DNA of 64,000 nt, taken from contig CAJYDM010000001.1 in assembly GCA_913757435.1 (NCBI GenBank), forward strand, positions 1,054,001-1,118,000, read 5' to 3'. Position 1 is the stretch's first letter, and each line of letters opens with the position of its first letter. Under the pieces are notes generated by a model. It saw only the letters and a list, made by a program, of their open reading frames with translations, did no database searches and was not told the origin of the DNA. The translations under genes were made by a program, and so were the position numbers. This document shows positions 5,531 through 51,630 of this stretch, in pieces. Origin of the DNA: Syntrophomonas sp. DTU019. Lineage in GTDB: Bacteria > Bacillota > Syntrophomonadia > Syntrophomonadales > Syntrophomonadaceae.

Positions 5531-6244
5531 ATGTTTAAGGCAGTTTTATTCGACCTGGATGGCACCTTATTAGACATTGATATGAATGTGTTTTTGGAGC
5601 ACTATTTCCATACCATGGCGGAAATGGCCGCTCAGTCAGGATTTCAACAGCACCGCCAGCTGGTTGAACAGGTATTTCAATCGACCGGCGTGATGATCGC
5701 CGACCGTGACCCAACATCCACCAACCAGGATATCTTTATGAATGATTTCTTCAGTCGTTGGCCGTATCAGAGGCATGAATTTGAGCCGTTTTTTGAGCAT
5801 TTTTACCGTGAAGGCTTTCCGCGCCTGAGCCGTTTATGCCGTCCCATACCAGGAGTACCTGAGCTTATCAAGGGTATGGCCAACAAAGGCATCCAGATGG
5901 TCGTGGCCACCAATGCGGTTTTTCCCCTGACCGCGCTCCAGCAGCGTCTGCAATGGGCTGGCCTGGAGGCAGATGTCTTCGACCTGATCACATCCTATGA
6001 AGTAATGCACTTCTGTAAACCCCATTTGGAATACTACCAGGAGATATGCGAAAAGCTTCAGTTAAAACCCCAGGATTGTTTGATGGTGGGCAATGATGTG
6101 GGAGAGGATATGGTGGCTGAAAAGCTGGGTATGAAAACCTTCCTGGTGGAGGATTATGTAATCGATCCCGGCCATACTGATATCAGACCTACCTGGAGGG
6201 GCACTATGCGAGAATTTTTGGCCTTTGCATCCAAAAATTTATAG
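5531..6244 (+). CDS. HAD-superfamily hydrolase (phosphatase-like)
   Basis: Probable small-molecule phosphatase of the haloacid dehalogenase superfamily, 237 residues. Motif I is FDLDGTLLD at the N-terminus with the nucleophile and acid aspartates. Motif II is the Thr in VVATNA, motif III the Lys in HFCKPH, and motif IV the acidic pair in VGNDVGEDM. The stretch between motifs I and II is long enough for a helical cap. ATG 5531 is chosen over the in-frame GTG 5525 because AGGAG at 5521 gives proper spacing only to the ATG. It lies between an AhpD-like gene and a spore-protein gene; substrate cannot be told. Confidence 0.88.
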   Translation: MFKAVLFDLDGTLLDIDMNVFLEHYFHTMAEMAAQSGFQQHRQLVEQVFQSTGVMIADRDPTSTNQDIFMNDFFSRWPYQRHEFEPFFEHFYREGFPRLSRLCRPIPGVPELIKGMANKGIQMVVATNAVFPLTALQQRLQWAGLEADVFDLITSYEVMHFCKPHLEYYQEICEKLQLKPQDCLMVGNDVGEDMVAEKLGMKTFLVEDYVIDPGHTDIRPTWRGTMREFLAFASKNL

Positions 6245-41811: not shown

Positions 41812-42684
41812 TCACTTCCAATCCTCAAAAAGCAGCTTCATGGTCTCATCATAAACTCCTCTTGCCGCACGGCCTGACGAACAGTCTATATCAACAATGG
41901 TCTGTCCCTTGTTAATTGCCTTTACTGCATCCGTGTCAAAGGGTATACGACCCAAAAAAGGTATGGCGTAAGTATGGCAGAATGACTCGATTTTTTGGGT
42001 ATTGTCAAGATTTGTATCATATTTGTTGATGCAAACCGCTATTCTGGTTTGAAAGGTCTGGGCAGTTTTTATGATACGTTCCATATCACTGATACCCGAT
42101 AGGGATGGTTCGGCAACAATTAAGACCATATCCACACCGCTTATCGATGCAATGACCGGGCACCCTATCCCGGGAGAGCCATCGATGATTGCCAGTTTGG
42201 TATCCACAATCACTGATTTCATCTGCTTTTTTACTTCCGTAACCAGCATTCCAGAAGTACCGCTTCCCATCTTAAGCTGGGCGGTGGAGAATACCCTGTT
42301 ATCGTCTAAATAAAGCATCAGTTCACCTGCTATCGCCGGTTTTAAAGCTACCGCATTAACAGGGCAGACCGCTTCACAGACCCCACAACCTTCACAGGCA
42401 TAGTGATCCACCTGGTATTCGTGATGGTGGTTGATTGCGTCAAATCGGCAATGCTCACGGCACAAGTCGCATTCGATACATAATTCGGCTTCTATTTTCG
42501 CCTTAGGCAGCCCGTAATAGTCAGTCCGTGTGGGTTCAGAGGACATACCCATTATCAGGTGAAGATTGGGCGCGTCTACATCACAGTCCGCGTAAACCCT
42601 GGCATTAGCCAGTTTAATAAAAGCCCCTGCCAAGGTTGTTTTCCCGGTGCCGCCCTTACCGCTTAGGATTAGTAACTGTTTCAT
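41812..42684 (-). CDS. MinD-superfamily ATPase with inserted ferredoxin domain (second of pair)
   Basis: 290-residue P-loop ATPase. Deviant Walker A: LSGKGGTGKTT at residues 7-17. At about 60-110 two 4Fe-4S binding motifs are inserted (CIECDLCREHC and CEGCGVCEAVCP). IIDGSPGIGCPVIAS is the Walker B/switch segment. Such proteins pair as heterodimers and act in iron-sulfur or ORP complex assembly. It overlaps the start of the partner gene's stop by 4 bases (42681-42684), so the two are translationally coupled. Confidence 0.9.
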   Translation of the reverse strand: MKQLLILSGKGGTGKTTLAGAFIKLANARVYADCDVDAPNLHLIMGMSSEPTRTDYYGLPKAKIEAELCIECDLCREHCRFDAINHHHEYQVDHYACEGCGVCEAVCPVNAVALKPAIAGELMLYLDDNRVFSTAQLKMGSGTSGMLVTEVKKQMKSVIVDTKLAIIDGSPGIGCPVIASISGVDMVLIVAEPSLSGISDMERIIKTAQTFQTRIAVCINKYDTNLDNTQKIESFCHTYAIPFLGRIPFDTDAVKAINKGQTIVDIDCSSGRAARGVYDETMKLLFEDWK

Positions 42685-43520
42685 TTCTGCACCTCCTCGG
42701 TCACTATCTGCAGCAGGGCAGAGAACAGCATTTTATAATTTTCATTTTCCCTTACAGCGATTTGGGCATTCGAGTTCAGCAACCCCAGCTCATTATCAAA
42801 TGGTATTCTGCCTAAAATCCTGATGCCTTTTTCCAGGCAGAATTCCTCCGCAGGGTTTTTCCCCTCCAGGCACTTATTAAGCACTACTCCATGGGGCTTA
42901 TCAAATAACTTGACCAATTCATAAACCATATTGAAATTATGAACCCCGAACAAGGTAGGCTCCGCTACCAATATACAGTAGTCTGCATCTCTGATGCTCT
43001 CCATGGCAATACAGGCGCTTCCCGGCGGGCAGTCTATAAAGATGAATTCTGGCCCTGGCAGTATGTCATTCAAAAGCTTCTTTATAATAGGTATGCCCGA
43101 TGCTTCACCGATGTTTAATATCCCGGTATTTACCGTTACATTCTCTGATGTCCCTTTTTGCACCCTACCAATAACCTTATCTTGTTCCGACAGGGCTTTT
43201 TCAGGGCAGAACAATATACATCCCCCGCAGGAATGGCAAACCTCGTTAAAGATCTTTAACTTCCCATTGATATAAGCCAGGGCATTAAATTTGCAAAAAT
43301 CAACACATATTCGGCATCCATTGCATAGCTGTTCATCTACGGAGGGGATCTTAATGGCTATTTCTTCCTCCTCAACACCTTCAGGTCTAAAAAACAGATA
43401 TCCATTCGGCTCCTCAACATCACAATCAATGTAAACTGAGGTTTGCGTTGCAGCCGCCAGATTTACCGATACCAACGTCTTACCGGTGCCACCCTTGCCA
43501 CTAAGCACAGCTATTTTCAT
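42681..43520 (-). CDS. MinD-superfamily ATPase with inserted ferredoxin domain (first of pair)
   Basis: 279 residues from ATG 43520, one base after the stop of the upstream NifX-like gene. Walker A is LSGKGGTGKT; 4Fe-4S motifs are CNGCRICVDFC and CHSCGGCILFCP in an insert at about 65-115; the switch region is FIDCPPGSACIA. It is a paralogue of the following gene, with the same architecture but low similarity. Together they match the paired MinD-like ATPases of the anaerobe ORP cluster (known from Desulfovibrio). Confidence 0.9.
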   Translation of the reverse strand: MKIAVLSGKGGTGKTLVSVNLAAATQTSVYIDCDVEEPNGYLFFRPEGVEEEEIAIKIPSVDEQLCNGCRICVDFCKFNALAYINGKLKIFNEVCHSCGGCILFCPEKALSEQDKVIGRVQKGTSENVTVNTGILNIGEASGIPIIKKLLNDILPGPEFIFIDCPPGSACIAMESIRDADYCILVAEPTLFGVHNFNMVYELVKLFDKPHGVVLNKCLEGKNPAEEFCLEKGIRILGRIPFDNELGLLNSNAQIAVRENENYKMLFSALLQIVTEEVQK

Positions 43521-43521
43521 A

Positions 43522-43890
43522 TTATCTGTTCCCACGGCCATGAAATCCGGGATGAATCTCGTCTAACAAAGAGAGCTCACCGTCAATGAAGACCTTGATA
43601 TTTCCCAAAGCGGTAGCGTCAATGGTTTTATATATTTTTATGGATGCTCCTTTGATTACCTGAGCGGCATTTTCACCGCAACGTGGTGTAAGTAATGCAC
43701 TTATGTTGGCATCAACAACGGTTTGGGCCGCCTTGATCCCGGCACCGCCCTGGCTGACCGCAGCCTTGTTATCAATGAACTCACTAGCCTTTGAGTCGGT
43801 ATCATAAATGAGTAAATATGGTGCCCGTCCAAATGATTGGCATACACTTGAATCAATGCTTTTCTCGTCTACCGGTATCGCTATTCTCAT
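43522..43890 (-). CDS. NifX/orange-protein-like protein
   Basis: 122 residues: MRIAIPVDEKSIDSSV, then CQSFGRAPYLLIYD (the metal-site loop, here with SFGRA), GAGIKAAQTVVD and TPRCGENAAQVI. It belongs to the same cofactor-binding fold as the protein at 41117-41476 but lacks the His-Cys tail. AAGGAGG precedes ATG 43890. metK ends 42 bases upstream on the same strand, so the gene could be read from the metK transcript. Confidence 0.88.
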   Translation of the reverse strand: MRIAIPVDEKSIDSSVCQSFGRAPYLLIYDTDSKASEFIDNKAAVSQGGAGIKAAQTVVDANISALLTPRCGENAAQVIKGASIKIYKTIDATALGNIKVFIDGELSLLDEIHPGFHGRGNR

Positions 43891-47283: not shown

Positions 47284-48765
47284 TTGGATGAGGTTTTCTC
47301 CAAGTTCAAAGAAGTGCTGTATTCGGTATTACCGATAACACTTATAGTAATAGTACTAAACTTTACTCTGTCGCCGGTTGCTACACCGTTGATCATTAGA
47401 TTTATTATCGGTGCGGTACTTATTATTATCGGATTGACCATTTTTTTGATCGGGGTAGATATCGGCATCACTCCAATTGGCAATACCATGGGCTCAACAA
47501 TGGCCAAAAGCAACAAACTCTGGATAGTCATTCTGGCTGGTATACTTCTTGGATTTTTTGTGTCCATTGCCGAACCCGACCTTCATATTCTAGCTGGACA
47601 GGTAGCTGCGGTCACATCAGGTTTAATTGCCAAGAATATCCTGGTTGTGATCGTATCAATTGGGATCGCGGTATTTTTATCGATAGGCCTGACTAGAATC
47701 GTTCTCAATTTTCCTATACACAAGCTGCTTACACTGATTTATGCGGTGATTTTGATACTTGCATTTATGACTTCACCGGAGTTTCTGGCCATATCATTCG
47801 ATGCTTCGGGTGCAACCACGGGAGCCTTGACGGTTCCCTTTATTCTTGCCCTGGCGGTGGGGGTATCCAAACTTAAGAAGCATAGTCAAGAAGCCGAAAA
47901 AGATAGCTTTGGACTGGTAGGAATTGCTTCTGCGGGTGCAATTATATCAGTTATGGCCATGAGCATTATTTCGAAAACCGATAAGGTCACGGGCAATCTT
48001 CCTCAGCAAACCGTTTCCGATGCCATAGTTGAACCTTTTTTACACATATTTCCCATCGTGACCGGGGAGGTTATCGTGTCACTGCTGCCTATCGTAATAA
48101 CTTTTCTAATATTTCAAAGAATTTCCTTTAAGTTGTCAAAACGGAATGTACGTAAGATATTATTCGGAACATTATTCACCTTAATAGGTCTGGTTCTGTT
48201 TTTGGTTGGCGTTAATGCTGGTTTCATGAACGTAGGAAGCACGGTTGGATATAACCTGGCTTCACTAGATAGCAAAGCTTATGTAATCATTCTAGCCTTT
48301 GTGTTGGGCTTTGTGACTATTCTTGCCGAACCGGCAGTGTATGTCCTGACGCATCAGATCGAAGATGTTACCAGCGGTTATGTAAAACGGCCGGTGGTTT
48401 TGATTACGCTTGCTATAGGAGTTGGCATAGCTGTAGCTCTATCGATAATTAGGATTTTAATACCAGAATTGCAGCTATGGCAATATCTCCTTCCAGGATA
48501 TATGATTGCATTAGCGTTAATGTATTTTGTGCCTACGCTCTTTGTCGGTATGGCCTTTGATTCAGGCGGTGTCGCTTCAGGACCGATGACAGCCACTTTT
48601 ATACTGGCATATTCACAAGGTGTTGCAGAAGCCATACCAGGTGCCAATGTACTCACTGAAGGATTCGGAATGATTGCCATGGTTGCTATGACTCCAGTTA
48701 TCTCTTTACAAATATTGGGTTTGATTTTTAAACTAAAATCGAAGAAAGGAGAAATGGAGAGTTGA
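47284..48765 (+). CDS. DUF1538 family membrane protein (two-repeat putative transporter)
   Basis: 493 residues and about 12 hydrophobic helices in two homologous halves. Each half has a segment like LIIIGLTIFLIGVDIGITPIG / LIGLVLFLVGVNAGFMNVGS, then an acidic-proline motif (SIAEPDLHIL / ILAEPAVYVL), and a polar motif inside a helix pair: FDASGATTGALTVPFILA and FDSGGVASGPMTATFILA. This duplication of FD-x-G-x3-G-x2-T suggests an inverted-repeat transporter with paired ligand sites. Start is TTG 47284 behind AAAGGAAG. The next gene, a tandem PII-like protein, overlaps the stop codon, so a nucleotide-sensing control of transport is likely. Confidence 0.88.
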   Translation: MDEVFSKFKEVLYSVLPITLIVIVLNFTLSPVATPLIIRFIIGAVLIIIGLTIFLIGVDIGITPIGNTMGSTMAKSNKLWIVILAGILLGFFVSIAEPDLHILAGQVAAVTSGLIAKNILVVIVSIGIAVFLSIGLTRIVLNFPIHKLLTLIYAVILILAFMTSPEFLAISFDASGATTGALTVPFILALAVGVSKLKKHSQEAEKDSFGLVGIASAGAIISVMAMSIISKTDKVTGNLPQQTVSDAIVEPFLHIFPIVTGEVIVSLLPIVITFLIFQRISFKLSKRNVRKILFGTLFTLIGLVLFLVGVNAGFMNVGSTVGYNLASLDSKAYVIILAFVLGFVTILAEPAVYVLTHQIEDVTSGYVKRPVVLITLAIGVGIAVALSIIRILIPELQLWQYLLPGYMIALALMYFVPTLFVGMAFDSGGVASGPMTATFILAYSQGVAEAIPGANVLTEGFGMIAMVAMTPVISLQILGLIFKLKSKKGEMES

Positions 48766-49421
48766 TAGACGAAATGGATATCGAGTTGATATGCATAATT
48801 GTCAATTTCGGATCGGGGAGCAAACTGATCAAAACAGCTAAACAATGCGGTGTGACAGGTGGCACAGTAACACTGGGAAAAGGAACCATTGACAACCGAA
48901 TCCTCGATTATCTGGGGATCTCAAGTGTAAGAAAAGAGGTCGTGTTTCTAATAGCTGAGAAGTCCACAGCTTATAAGGCACTTGATACAATCAACAAAAA
49001 GTTTATGTTTCATAAACCCAATCATGGTATTGCCTTTACGTCTACCATTTGCAGTCTATCCGGAACAAATCGTCTTTCATGCAATAGTATTAAGACTGAA
49101 AGAGGTGCGAATAACAATATGTATAACGCCATCACAACAATTGTAGATAAAGGTAAGGCAGAAGATGTTATTGATGCAGCAACTAAAGCCGGATCAAAAG
49201 GAGGCACCATTATAAACGCCAGAGGTTCGGGAATTCATGAAACCAGCAAATTATTCTCGATGGAGATCGAGCCGGAAAAAGAGATCGTCATTATTCTTTC
49301 TGAAGTAGCGTCAACCGAAAAAATCGTAGCTTCAATTAGAAACCATTTAAAAATCGACAAACCTGGCAACGGCATAATATATGTCCAGGACGTCAATAAA
49401 ACCTATGGTATATATAAATAA
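48762..49421 (+). CDS. Tandem PII-like signalling protein (two fused domains)
   Basis: 219 residues made of two PII-type domains (about 5-95 and 115-215). Domain 1 has GVTGGTVTLGKGTIDNRIL, KEVVFLIAE and HKPNHGIAF; domain 2 has GSKGGTIINARGSGIHETS, EKEIVIILSE and DKPGNGIIYV. In PII proteins the GGT strand, the T-loop and the K-P-G-x-G turn form the nucleotide site; here the T-loop is short and the uridylylated Tyr is absent. TTG 48762 overlaps the TGA of the DUF1538 gene; ATG 48774 is the alternative. A fused dimer would form a pseudo-trimeric or higher assembly, unlike classical homotrimers. Confidence 0.85.
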   Translation: MIDEMDIELICIIVNFGSGSKLIKTAKQCGVTGGTVTLGKGTIDNRILDYLGISSVRKEVVFLIAEKSTAYKALDTINKKFMFHKPNHGIAFTSTICSLSGTNRLSCNSIKTERGANNNMYNAITTIVDKGKAEDVIDAATKAGSKGGTIINARGSGIHETSKLFSMEIEPEKEIVIILSEVASTEKIVASIRNHLKIDKPGNGIIYVQDVNKTYGIYK

Positions 49422-49608: not shown

Positions 49609-51630
49609 ATGCACATTCCTCTTTTAAATGACATTATCATCATATTTGGCCTGGCCATCGCGGTGATATATATCTGCCACAAGATCAACCTCCCTAGCGT
49701 GGTGGGACTTTTGATTACCGGGGTACTGGCTGGTCCTCATGGATGGGGACTAGTCAATGATGTAAAAAGTGTTGATGCTATGGCTGAGCTGGGCATTATT
49801 CTGTTGCTTTTTACCATAGGTATCGAGTTTTCAATACGAGAACTCTTGAGAATCAAGAAAAGCGTATTCTTAGGCGGAGTTCTGCAGGTTTTGTTCACTT
49901 CGCTGGCAACCATGCTTATTGTGATAAGAATCGGATACCATTGGAATATTGCCTTGTTTATGGGTTTTCTGGTGTCGCTGAGCAGCACCGCCATTGTGCT
50001 CAAACTGATGCAGGACCGCTCTGAGATTGATTCCCCCCATGGCCGGAATATACTGGGCATATTGATTTTTCAGGACATTATCATCATACCCATGATGCTA
50101 TTAACCCCGATTTTGGCCCATGCCGCTGGCGGAACCGGGGAATCCATTTTACTGTTGATTGTAGAAATGCTGTTGGTATTGGTGTTTTTGTATGTCAGCG
50201 CCCGCTGGGTGGCGCCATTTATTTTCCACCACATCGCCAGACAGCGAAGCCGGGAGTTATTCCTGATCAGCACTGTCACCATGGGGTTGGCGGTGGCCTG
50301 GCTGACCTCCAGCATCGGATTGTCACTATCGCTGGGGGCCTTCCTGGCCGGGTTGATTATTTCGGAATCCGAGTACAATCATCAGGCCCTGGTCAGCATC
50401 TTGCCTTTCCGCGATGTGTTCACCAGTATCTTCTTTGTGTCGGTAGGTATGTTGTTCAATGCCGCCGAGTTTTTACACAACCCCCTGGCACTGGCCGGGG
50501 CGGCCCTGTTGATCCTGGTGGTGAAGGCTATCGCCGCAGGGGGAGTGGTATTGTCGCTGGGCTTTCCCTTGAGGACCGCTATCCTGGCAGGTCTGGCTCT
50601 TAATCAGGTGGGAGAATTCTCCTTTATTCTTTCCCGGGTAGGATTAGAGTACCAGTTATTGAGTCAGGAATTCTATCAGTTGTTCATTATTGTCTCAGTG
50701 CTAACCATGGCCCTAACGCCCTTCAGCATAGGACTCAGCCCTCGCCTGGCGCAGGCCTTGCTGCGCCTTCCCCTGCCTGCCAAGACCAGAACCGGTATAG
50801 ACCAGCATTTGGAATCACCTCATGAGCATTTGAATGACCATCTGGTCATTATAGGTTTTGGCATCAACGGCCGTAATCTGGCCCGGGCGGCATCTGCTAC
50901 CAACATTCCCTATGTGATCATAGAGATGAACCCCGATGTGGTAAAGCAGGAAAGGTGTAATGGCGAGCCCATCTTTTTCGGGGATGCCATTCATCCGGAA
51001 GTGCTGCAGCAGGCTAATATCGATACCGCCCGGGTGGTGGTAGTGGCCATATCAGATGCTGCCGCGACTAACCGAATCGTGGATATGATCCACAGAACCA
51101 ATCCCCAGGTGCACATCATCGTGCGCACCCGCTATGTGCAGGATATTGGGGAACTTTACTCATTGGGGGCTCACGATGTCATTCCCGAGGAATTTGAGAC
51201 TTCCATAGAGATATTTACCCTGGTCTTGAAGAAATACCTGATTCCCAAAGTCGATATTGATGGGTTTGTTGCTGAGATCAGAGCCGATGGTTATGAGATG
51301 CTGCGCAGCATGTCCAGGAAATCCCCCACCTTCCATGACATCAAACTGCATTGCCATGATGCTGAAATCGCCAATATCAGGGTGGAAGGCAGCTCAGTTT
51401 TAGTTAATCAGACCCTCGCTGATATCGATTTGAGGAATAGGTACGGGGTGTCTGTTTTATTGATCCAACGCGGGAATGAAACCATCATCAATCCCGCCGC
51501 CGACACTGTGCTGCAGCCTGAAGATCAAGCGGTTTTATTGGGAACTCCGGACTGCGTCAGTCAAGTTACACGGCTCCTGGGAGCAAGTGCGACACCAATG
51601 GGCACCCGACCCAGGCTGGAGGCGGTCTAA
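49609..51630 (+). CDS. CPA2-type cation:proton antiporter with TrkA domains
   Basis: 673 residues. The first 400 form about 12 membrane helices of the Na+/H+ or K+/H+ exchanger fold (GPHGWGLV, ELGIILLLFTIGIEF, SLSLGAFLAGLIISESEY, LNQVGEFSFIL). The soluble part has a Rossmann TrkA-N domain (VIIGFGINGRNLA, with an acidic residue after the second strand, so NAD(H)-type) near 425-540 and a TrkA-C domain at the end. Similar to KefB/YbaL-type potassium efflux systems. AGGAGGTAATCA precedes ATG 49609. A small CATGGCTG/CAGCCATG hairpin lies just upstream (49555-49580). Confidence 0.93.
   Translation: MHIPLLNDIIIIFGLAIAVIYICHKINLPSVVGLLITGVLAGPHGWGLVNDVKSVDAMAELGIILLLFTIGIEFSIRELLRIKKSVFLGGVLQVLFTSLATMLIVIRIGYHWNIALFMGFLVSLSSTAIVLKLMQDRSEIDSPHGRNILGILIFQDIIIIPMMLLTPILAHAAGGTGESILLLIVEMLLVLVFLYVSARWVAPFIFHHIARQRSRELFLISTVTMGLAVAWLTSSIGLSLSLGAFLAGLIISESEYNHQALVSILPFRDVFTSIFFVSVGMLFNAAEFLHNPLALAGAALLILVVKAIAAGGVVLSLGFPLRTAILAGLALNQVGEFSFILSRVGLEYQLLSQEFYQLFIIVSVLTMALTPFSIGLSPRLAQALLRLPLPAKTRTGIDQHLESPHEHLNDHLVIIGFGINGRNLARAASATNIPYVIIEMNPDVVKQERCNGEPIFFGDAIHPEVLQQANIDTARVVVVAISDAAATNRIVDMIHRTNPQVHIIVRTRYVQDIGELYSLGAHDVIPEEFETSIEIFTLVLKKYLIPKVDIDGFVAEIRADGYEMLRSMSRKSPTFHDIKLHCHDAEIANIRVEGSSVLVNQTLADIDLRNRYGVSVLLIQRGNETIINPAADTVLQPEDQAVLLGTPDCVSQVTRLLGASATPMGTRPRLEAV

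Follow-up and report, generated by a model that had tools for sequence, protein, structure and literature searches.

The locus at 47284-49421 raises the question of why the gene for a two-repeat DUF1538 membrane protein should overlap a gene for two PII-like domains in one chain, and what such a PII-like protein would control. The window, as the term is used here, is the whole 64,000-nucleotide stretch of Syntrophomonas sp. DTU019 that was analysed. Our analysis makes it likely that the DUF1538 protein is a cation/proton antiporter and that a specialised PII-like protein docks directly on it to set its activity. The arrangement itself had been described in an earlier note made from the sequence, and Pfam together with AlphaFold models and PDB comparison bears it out, ORF 48762-49421 overlapping the 3' end of ORF 47284-48765 by 4 nt. 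Should translation of the second gene begin at the ATG at 48774, the two genes would instead be separated by 8 nt.

The transporter gene begins with a TTG start codon, and its product contains PF07556 twice (458 bits, E 3.5e-138, well clear of the curated Pfam cut-off of 22.6 bits). The gene and its features are as follows.

47284..48765, + strand: fused two-repeat DUF1538 membrane protein (fused UmpA-UmpB-like), 493 aa, predicted cation/H+ antiporter (PF07556, AlphaFold)
47335..47970, + strand: DUF1538 repeat 1 (UmpA-like half), 231 bits in the whole-genome family search
47572..47577, + strand: E97-P98 motif of repeat 1, invariant in 38 homologues, at a helix break in the model; candidate ion-site acid
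47800..47802, + strand: D173 of FDASGATTG in repeat 1, invariant in the 38 homologues
48091..48726, + strand: DUF1538 repeat 2 (UmpB-like half), 240 bits in the whole-genome family search
48328..48333, + strand: E349-P350 motif of repeat 2, invariant in the 38 homologues
48559..48561, + strand: D426 of FDSGGVASGP in repeat 2, invariant in the 38 homologues

The same whole-genome family search revealed no second DUF1538 gene elsewhere in the genome. The AlphaFold model (pLDDT 86, pTM 0.85) has two sets of approximately seven transmembrane helices, one set per half, and with seven segments in each the halves are expected to be oppositely oriented. Loops 196-200 and 283-290 and the C-terminus are positive, consistent with a cytosolic placement of these parts. 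Each half of the model has two broken helices, interrupted at or near the invariant EP (E97/E349) and FDxxGxxxG (D173/D426) motifs. Both acidic motifs, EP and DxxGxxxG, are present in 239 of 265 DUF1538 halves, including each of the window repeats, and such conserved acidic residues are what a cation site would be expected to show. Comparison of the model with the PDB gave no match (Foldseek E-values of 0.02 or worse; VIA best Z 5.3). The fold of NCX_Mj was considered, with several of its chains aligning at Z ~4.7 and rmsd ~6, and was rejected as too weak.

DUF1538 proteins have been characterised in Halomonas zhaodongensis, where UmpAB, a DUF1538 pair encoded by overlapping genes and reported as a heterodimer, acts as a pH-dependent Na+(Li+,K+)/H+ antiporter (PMC5484666). 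The earlier note had proposed a poorly described transport system, perhaps for an ion or small anion; an ion, specifically a cation, is favoured by our analysis, and the UmpAB work shows the family to be better described than that. The window protein scores 178.6 and 144.5 bits against the UmpA and UmpB equivalog models (NF041627 and NF041628), below their cut-offs of 490 and 500, and because of this we infer its substrate instead of assigning it; cations are the probable cargo. DUF1538 is also among the features that predict growth pH, beside the Mrp and Kdp families (PMC13255231).

The downstream gene encodes a protein with two PF00543 stretches that score 50.5 bits against a cut-off of 25, which places it in the PII superfamily. 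Its AlphaFold model (pLDDT 84, pTM 0.80) consists of two beta-alpha-beta-beta-alpha-beta PII domains, the C-terminal of which superposes on many solved PII proteins with Z ~10.

48762..49421, + strand: tandem PII-like protein, 219 aa, two PF00543 stretches (AlphaFold)
48780..49061, + strand: PII-like N domain (residues ~7-100), decayed signature (AlphaFold secondary structure, motif table, domain tree)
49128..49412, + strand: PII-like C domain (residues 123-217), intact signature, best PF00543 stretch
49221..49241, + strand: RGSGIHE motif, shared by C domains with single and second-gene domains
49266..49283, + strand: IEPEKE motif of the C domain, at the end of the shortened T-loop (motif table)
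49359..49382, + strand: KPGNGIIY B-loop of the C domain, with Ile in place of the classical GDGK lysine

The motif table defines a family signature of RGxGIHE, IEPEKE and KPGxGI, which is kept in the C domains, in the domains encoded by second genes and in single domains. In systems with a fused transporter, RG..HE and the beginning of IEPEKE have disappeared from the N domains. The C domain is probably the sensing one. Since the N domain has kept the fold and lost the signature, it probably has a structural role in a hetero-oligomer, or serves in docking.

Classical GlnB and GlnK are single domains of ~112 residues with a full-length T-loop and a set of residues that contact the ATP phosphates, and the window protein departs from them in all of these respects. 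It comprises two domains in 219 aa. Compared with the genome's own GlnB, its T-loop region is short by 5 residues and lacks the YRG/Tyr segment with its modifiable Tyr; a short T-loop and a missing Tyr had already been read from the sequence in the earlier note. The ATP-phosphate residues are replaced, the B-loop Lys (GDGK) by Ile and the C-loop (C-terminal) Arg by Gly. Nucleotide gating, as proposed in the earlier note, is permitted by the PII fold but not predicted by the canonical residues, and an adenine nucleotide may be the ligand. The only other PII gene in the genome is an ordinary GlnB ~200 kb away.

The two genes are conserved as neighbours, as determined by a survey that had been set beforehand as the test of this part of the earlier note. 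A PII-like gene adjoins DUF1538 in 55 of 58 loci of the genome scan and, within the sample of the host's phylum, in 29 of the 30 top loci and 39 of 40 further regions, these locus sets overlapping slightly (L061 and L099 are one stretch). The gap to the downstream PII gene is at most 20 nt in 120 of 122 cases; in Marinilactibacillus and Allofustis the PII-like gene lies upstream of the transporter. Five loci have no PII neighbour. One ends with its contig (L071), one is a fragment (L062), and in a third only ~340 bases of contig are left (L023); the PII neighbour is absent outright from L052, and the genome of L123 has a tandem PII gene that is unlinked to DUF1538 (L153). The pairing extends to Alphaproteobacteria, in which plasmids of Methylocystis and Chelativorans carry umpA-umpB-PII, a split DUF1538 with a single PII. 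Transporter and PII genes are thus kept as neighbours in the manner of SbtA-SbtB and AmtB-GlnK, and the neighbour survey identified no third conserved gene family beside the pair. DUF1538 genes are also found in short unannotated 'phage' records (MT837261.1, MT835770.1 and OR847559.1), which are probably host DNA; two scans of viral contigs found nothing.

The two families also share their pattern of presence and absence. Of 398 genomes sampled from the phylum, 139 contain DUF1538 and 139 contain the partner PII, called by profile A5 at E<=1e-12. Both are present in 137 genomes, DUF1538 alone in two and the PII alone in two, and the other 257 lack both (phi 0.98; Fisher p 1e-102, with phylogeny left out of account). 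As far as sequences can tell, the genetic coupling is obligatory.

The architectures of the two partners vary together. Fused DUF1538 proteins accompany a tandem PII in 86 systems and two separate PII genes in one, and split DUF1538 genes accompany a tandem PII in 16, two PII genes in 8 and a single PII in 16; a lone DUF1538 gene pairs with a lone PII (L114 and L127). Where one single-repeat DUF1538 gene stands with one PII gene (L127 3808-4863, L114 3872-5000 and L129 5853-6924), the membrane protein is possibly a dual-topology homodimer. Loci L111, L115, L125 and L129 each contain two complete DUF1538-PII systems in tandem. In the domain tree, some deep nodes of which are poorly supported, the first genes of two-gene systems cluster with N domains and the second genes with C domains, and the tandem PII therefore looks like two old paralogues, arising in one duplication and fused later. 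A 682-aa ORF at L014 that joins both proteins was considered as a Rosetta-stone fusion and set aside; ~25 residues are missing at the start of its first PII domain, and we take the ORF to reflect a deletion or an artefact of assembly.

Neither amt nor glnA lies beside the window pair, in agreement with the earlier note, and the non-nitrogen role that it proposed is strongly supported by the near-universal adjacency and co-occurrence with DUF1538. The nearest gene with a nitrogen-related name, at 43522-43890, encodes a PF02579 protein and belongs to a MinD/ferredoxin cluster unrelated to the pair. This cluster (41812-43890) encodes two ferredoxin-containing MinD-type ATPases and the PF02579 (FeMo-cofactor-like) protein, and is not a nitrogenase. 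Following the pair, at 49609-51630, is a CPA2-type K+/H+ antiporter (KefB/C-like, with TrkA domains), a local neighbour and not a conserved one.

The operon was likely acquired horizontally as a two-gene cassette. Its G+C content is 41%, compared with 49% for the window, and its GC3 is ~39%, compared with ~60% for most neighbours. The operon is absent from the one congener sampled and from most sampled members of the same family; the relatives within the family are of the split type, with ~39-44% identity, and clostridial fused types are 73-76% identical. No Rfam cis-regulatory match was found upstream of the window operon.

Some hints of a role in cation homeostasis come from other loci, beside the association with growth pH. 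In L108 a c-di-AMP riboswitch (5571-5698, - strand), followed by a terminator-like hairpin, lies in the leader of a umpA-umpB-PII-PII operon, the only operon with such a riboswitch upstream. A general riboswitch link was considered and dropped, as the c-di-AMP riboswitch of L069 lies on the downstream side of the pair, where it precedes an asparagine-synthetase-like ORF. The PII-like family also has three orphan members, with a further shortened T-loop, directly upstream of a CitMHS/ArsB/NhaB/MamN-like permease unrelated to DUF1538:

L152, 4158-6092: orphan PII-like gene and permease
L154, 3994-5858: orphan PII-like gene and permease
L155, 2328-4205: orphan PII-like gene and permease

A broader reading, which we offer tentatively and consider possible although doubtful, is that these proteins form a distinct and widespread PII branch in which each unit combines an intact with a decayed domain. 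The branch would be dedicated to at least two unrelated cation/proton antiporter families and would gate them via a nucleotide second messenger, for which c-di-AMP or another adenine nucleotide is a possibility. If so, PII signalling would in this branch run salt and pH homeostasis instead of nitrogen.

Other explanations of the pair concern what is transported and what the PII-like protein reports. The substrate could be an anion or organic solute, with the Halomonas activity not extending to the window subfamily, and both the distance of the window halves from the UmpA and UmpB equivalog cut-offs and a model matching no solved fold, so that structure gives no substrate, are compatible with this. 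The acidic EP and DxxGxxxG motifs, however, are conserved family-wide, as for a cation site, and the growth-pH association (PMC13255231) and the c-di-AMP riboswitch on one operon also point to cations, such that we regard another substrate as rather unlikely. A role as a switch for nitrogen status, in which an ordinary PII would govern ammonium handling via a new channel, is very unlikely. The PF00543 match and the database annotation 'P-II family nitrogen regulator' would suit such a role, but the T-loop Tyr, GDGK Lys and C-terminal Arg are missing, the genome has a separate normal GlnB, and nitrogen genes are neither nearby nor conserved beside the pair. The annotation of the PII-like partner is probably wrong.

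Chance neighbourhood of the two genes has a negligible probability, being refuted by the adjacency and co-occurrence survey. That survey by itself demonstrates a functional link and not contact, and the PII-like protein could control transcription or another enzyme and merely be co-expressed with the antiporter; the one genome in which the two genes are unlinked would fit this arrangement. We consider it quite improbable given that PII proteins act mainly via protein contact, with several transporters among their known partners (PMC10710835), that PII gene fusion and copy number track the transporter subunits, and that related PIIs adjoin a second transporter family.

In the preferred reading, an antiporter controlled by docking, the two genes would make up a cassette for ion homeostasis that is complete in itself. 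In it, the fused DUF1538 protein would be a monovalent-cation (Na+/Li+/K+):proton antiporter with two homologous, oppositely oriented seven-helix halves, and the tandem PII-like protein a dedicated cytosolic regulator, docking on the transporter from the inside and switching or tuning its activity in response to a small ligand. Precedents are AmtB-GlnK and SbtA-SbtB, in which PII-type proteins lock or block transporters by direct contact, and the known PII-regulated transporters are described as trimers (PMC10710835). The contrast between these trimeric targets and the heterodimeric UmpAB is the main mechanistic tension in the proposal. For the window pair we infer both the binding of the PII-like protein to the transporter and the direction of control. 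Halomonas UmpAB is active in E. coli apparently without a PII, which makes the PII dispensable for activity and best seen as a modulator.

DUF1538 is present in about one third of the sampled genomes of the phylum, and near-perfect co-occurrence supplies this novel antiporter family with a specific candidate regulator that can be put to the test. As the two families occur in almost the same bacterial genomes, PII-like switches, best known from nitrogen control, may also regulate salt and pH balance, which would add ion and pH homeostasis to the nitrogen and carbon uptake already under PII control. The single, paired or fused state of the PII tracks the single, split or fused state of the transporter, which makes the stoichiometry of the predicted complex approachable by evolution. 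We found no paper on the DUF1538-PII pairing in the open-access literature, subscription journals being outside the search.

Several known systems resemble the window pair in part. Halomonas UmpAB belongs to the same Pfam family and has two homologous 7-TM units and overlapping genes, but its units are separate genes and its description mentions no PII, whereas in the window the units are fused and the gene overlaps that of a tandem PII. PstA/DarA (the c-di-AMP receptor) and CutA have a PII fold with altered loops, as the window PII-like protein does, although it has no match to their families among its Pfam matches at E<=1. SbtA-SbtB likewise combines a secondary transporter, for bicarbonate, with a dedicated PII-like protein, but the transporter is of another family and SbtB is a single-domain protein that acts on a trimer and has AMP/cAMP as ligands. 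AmtB-GlnK is a conserved transporter-PII gene pair in which GlnK docks on the cytosolic face of AmtB, as is predicted here; AmtB, however, is an ammonium channel, and the long uridylylatable T-loop and ATP/2-oxoglutarate sites of GlnK are not conserved in the window PII. NifI1/NifI2, the hetero-PII of nitrogenase, consists of two diverged PII paralogues encoded by adjacent genes. The window domains similarly represent two diverged paralogues of adjacent-gene origin, probably forming one hetero-oligomer, but the NifI partner is an enzyme and the NifI subunits are unfused.
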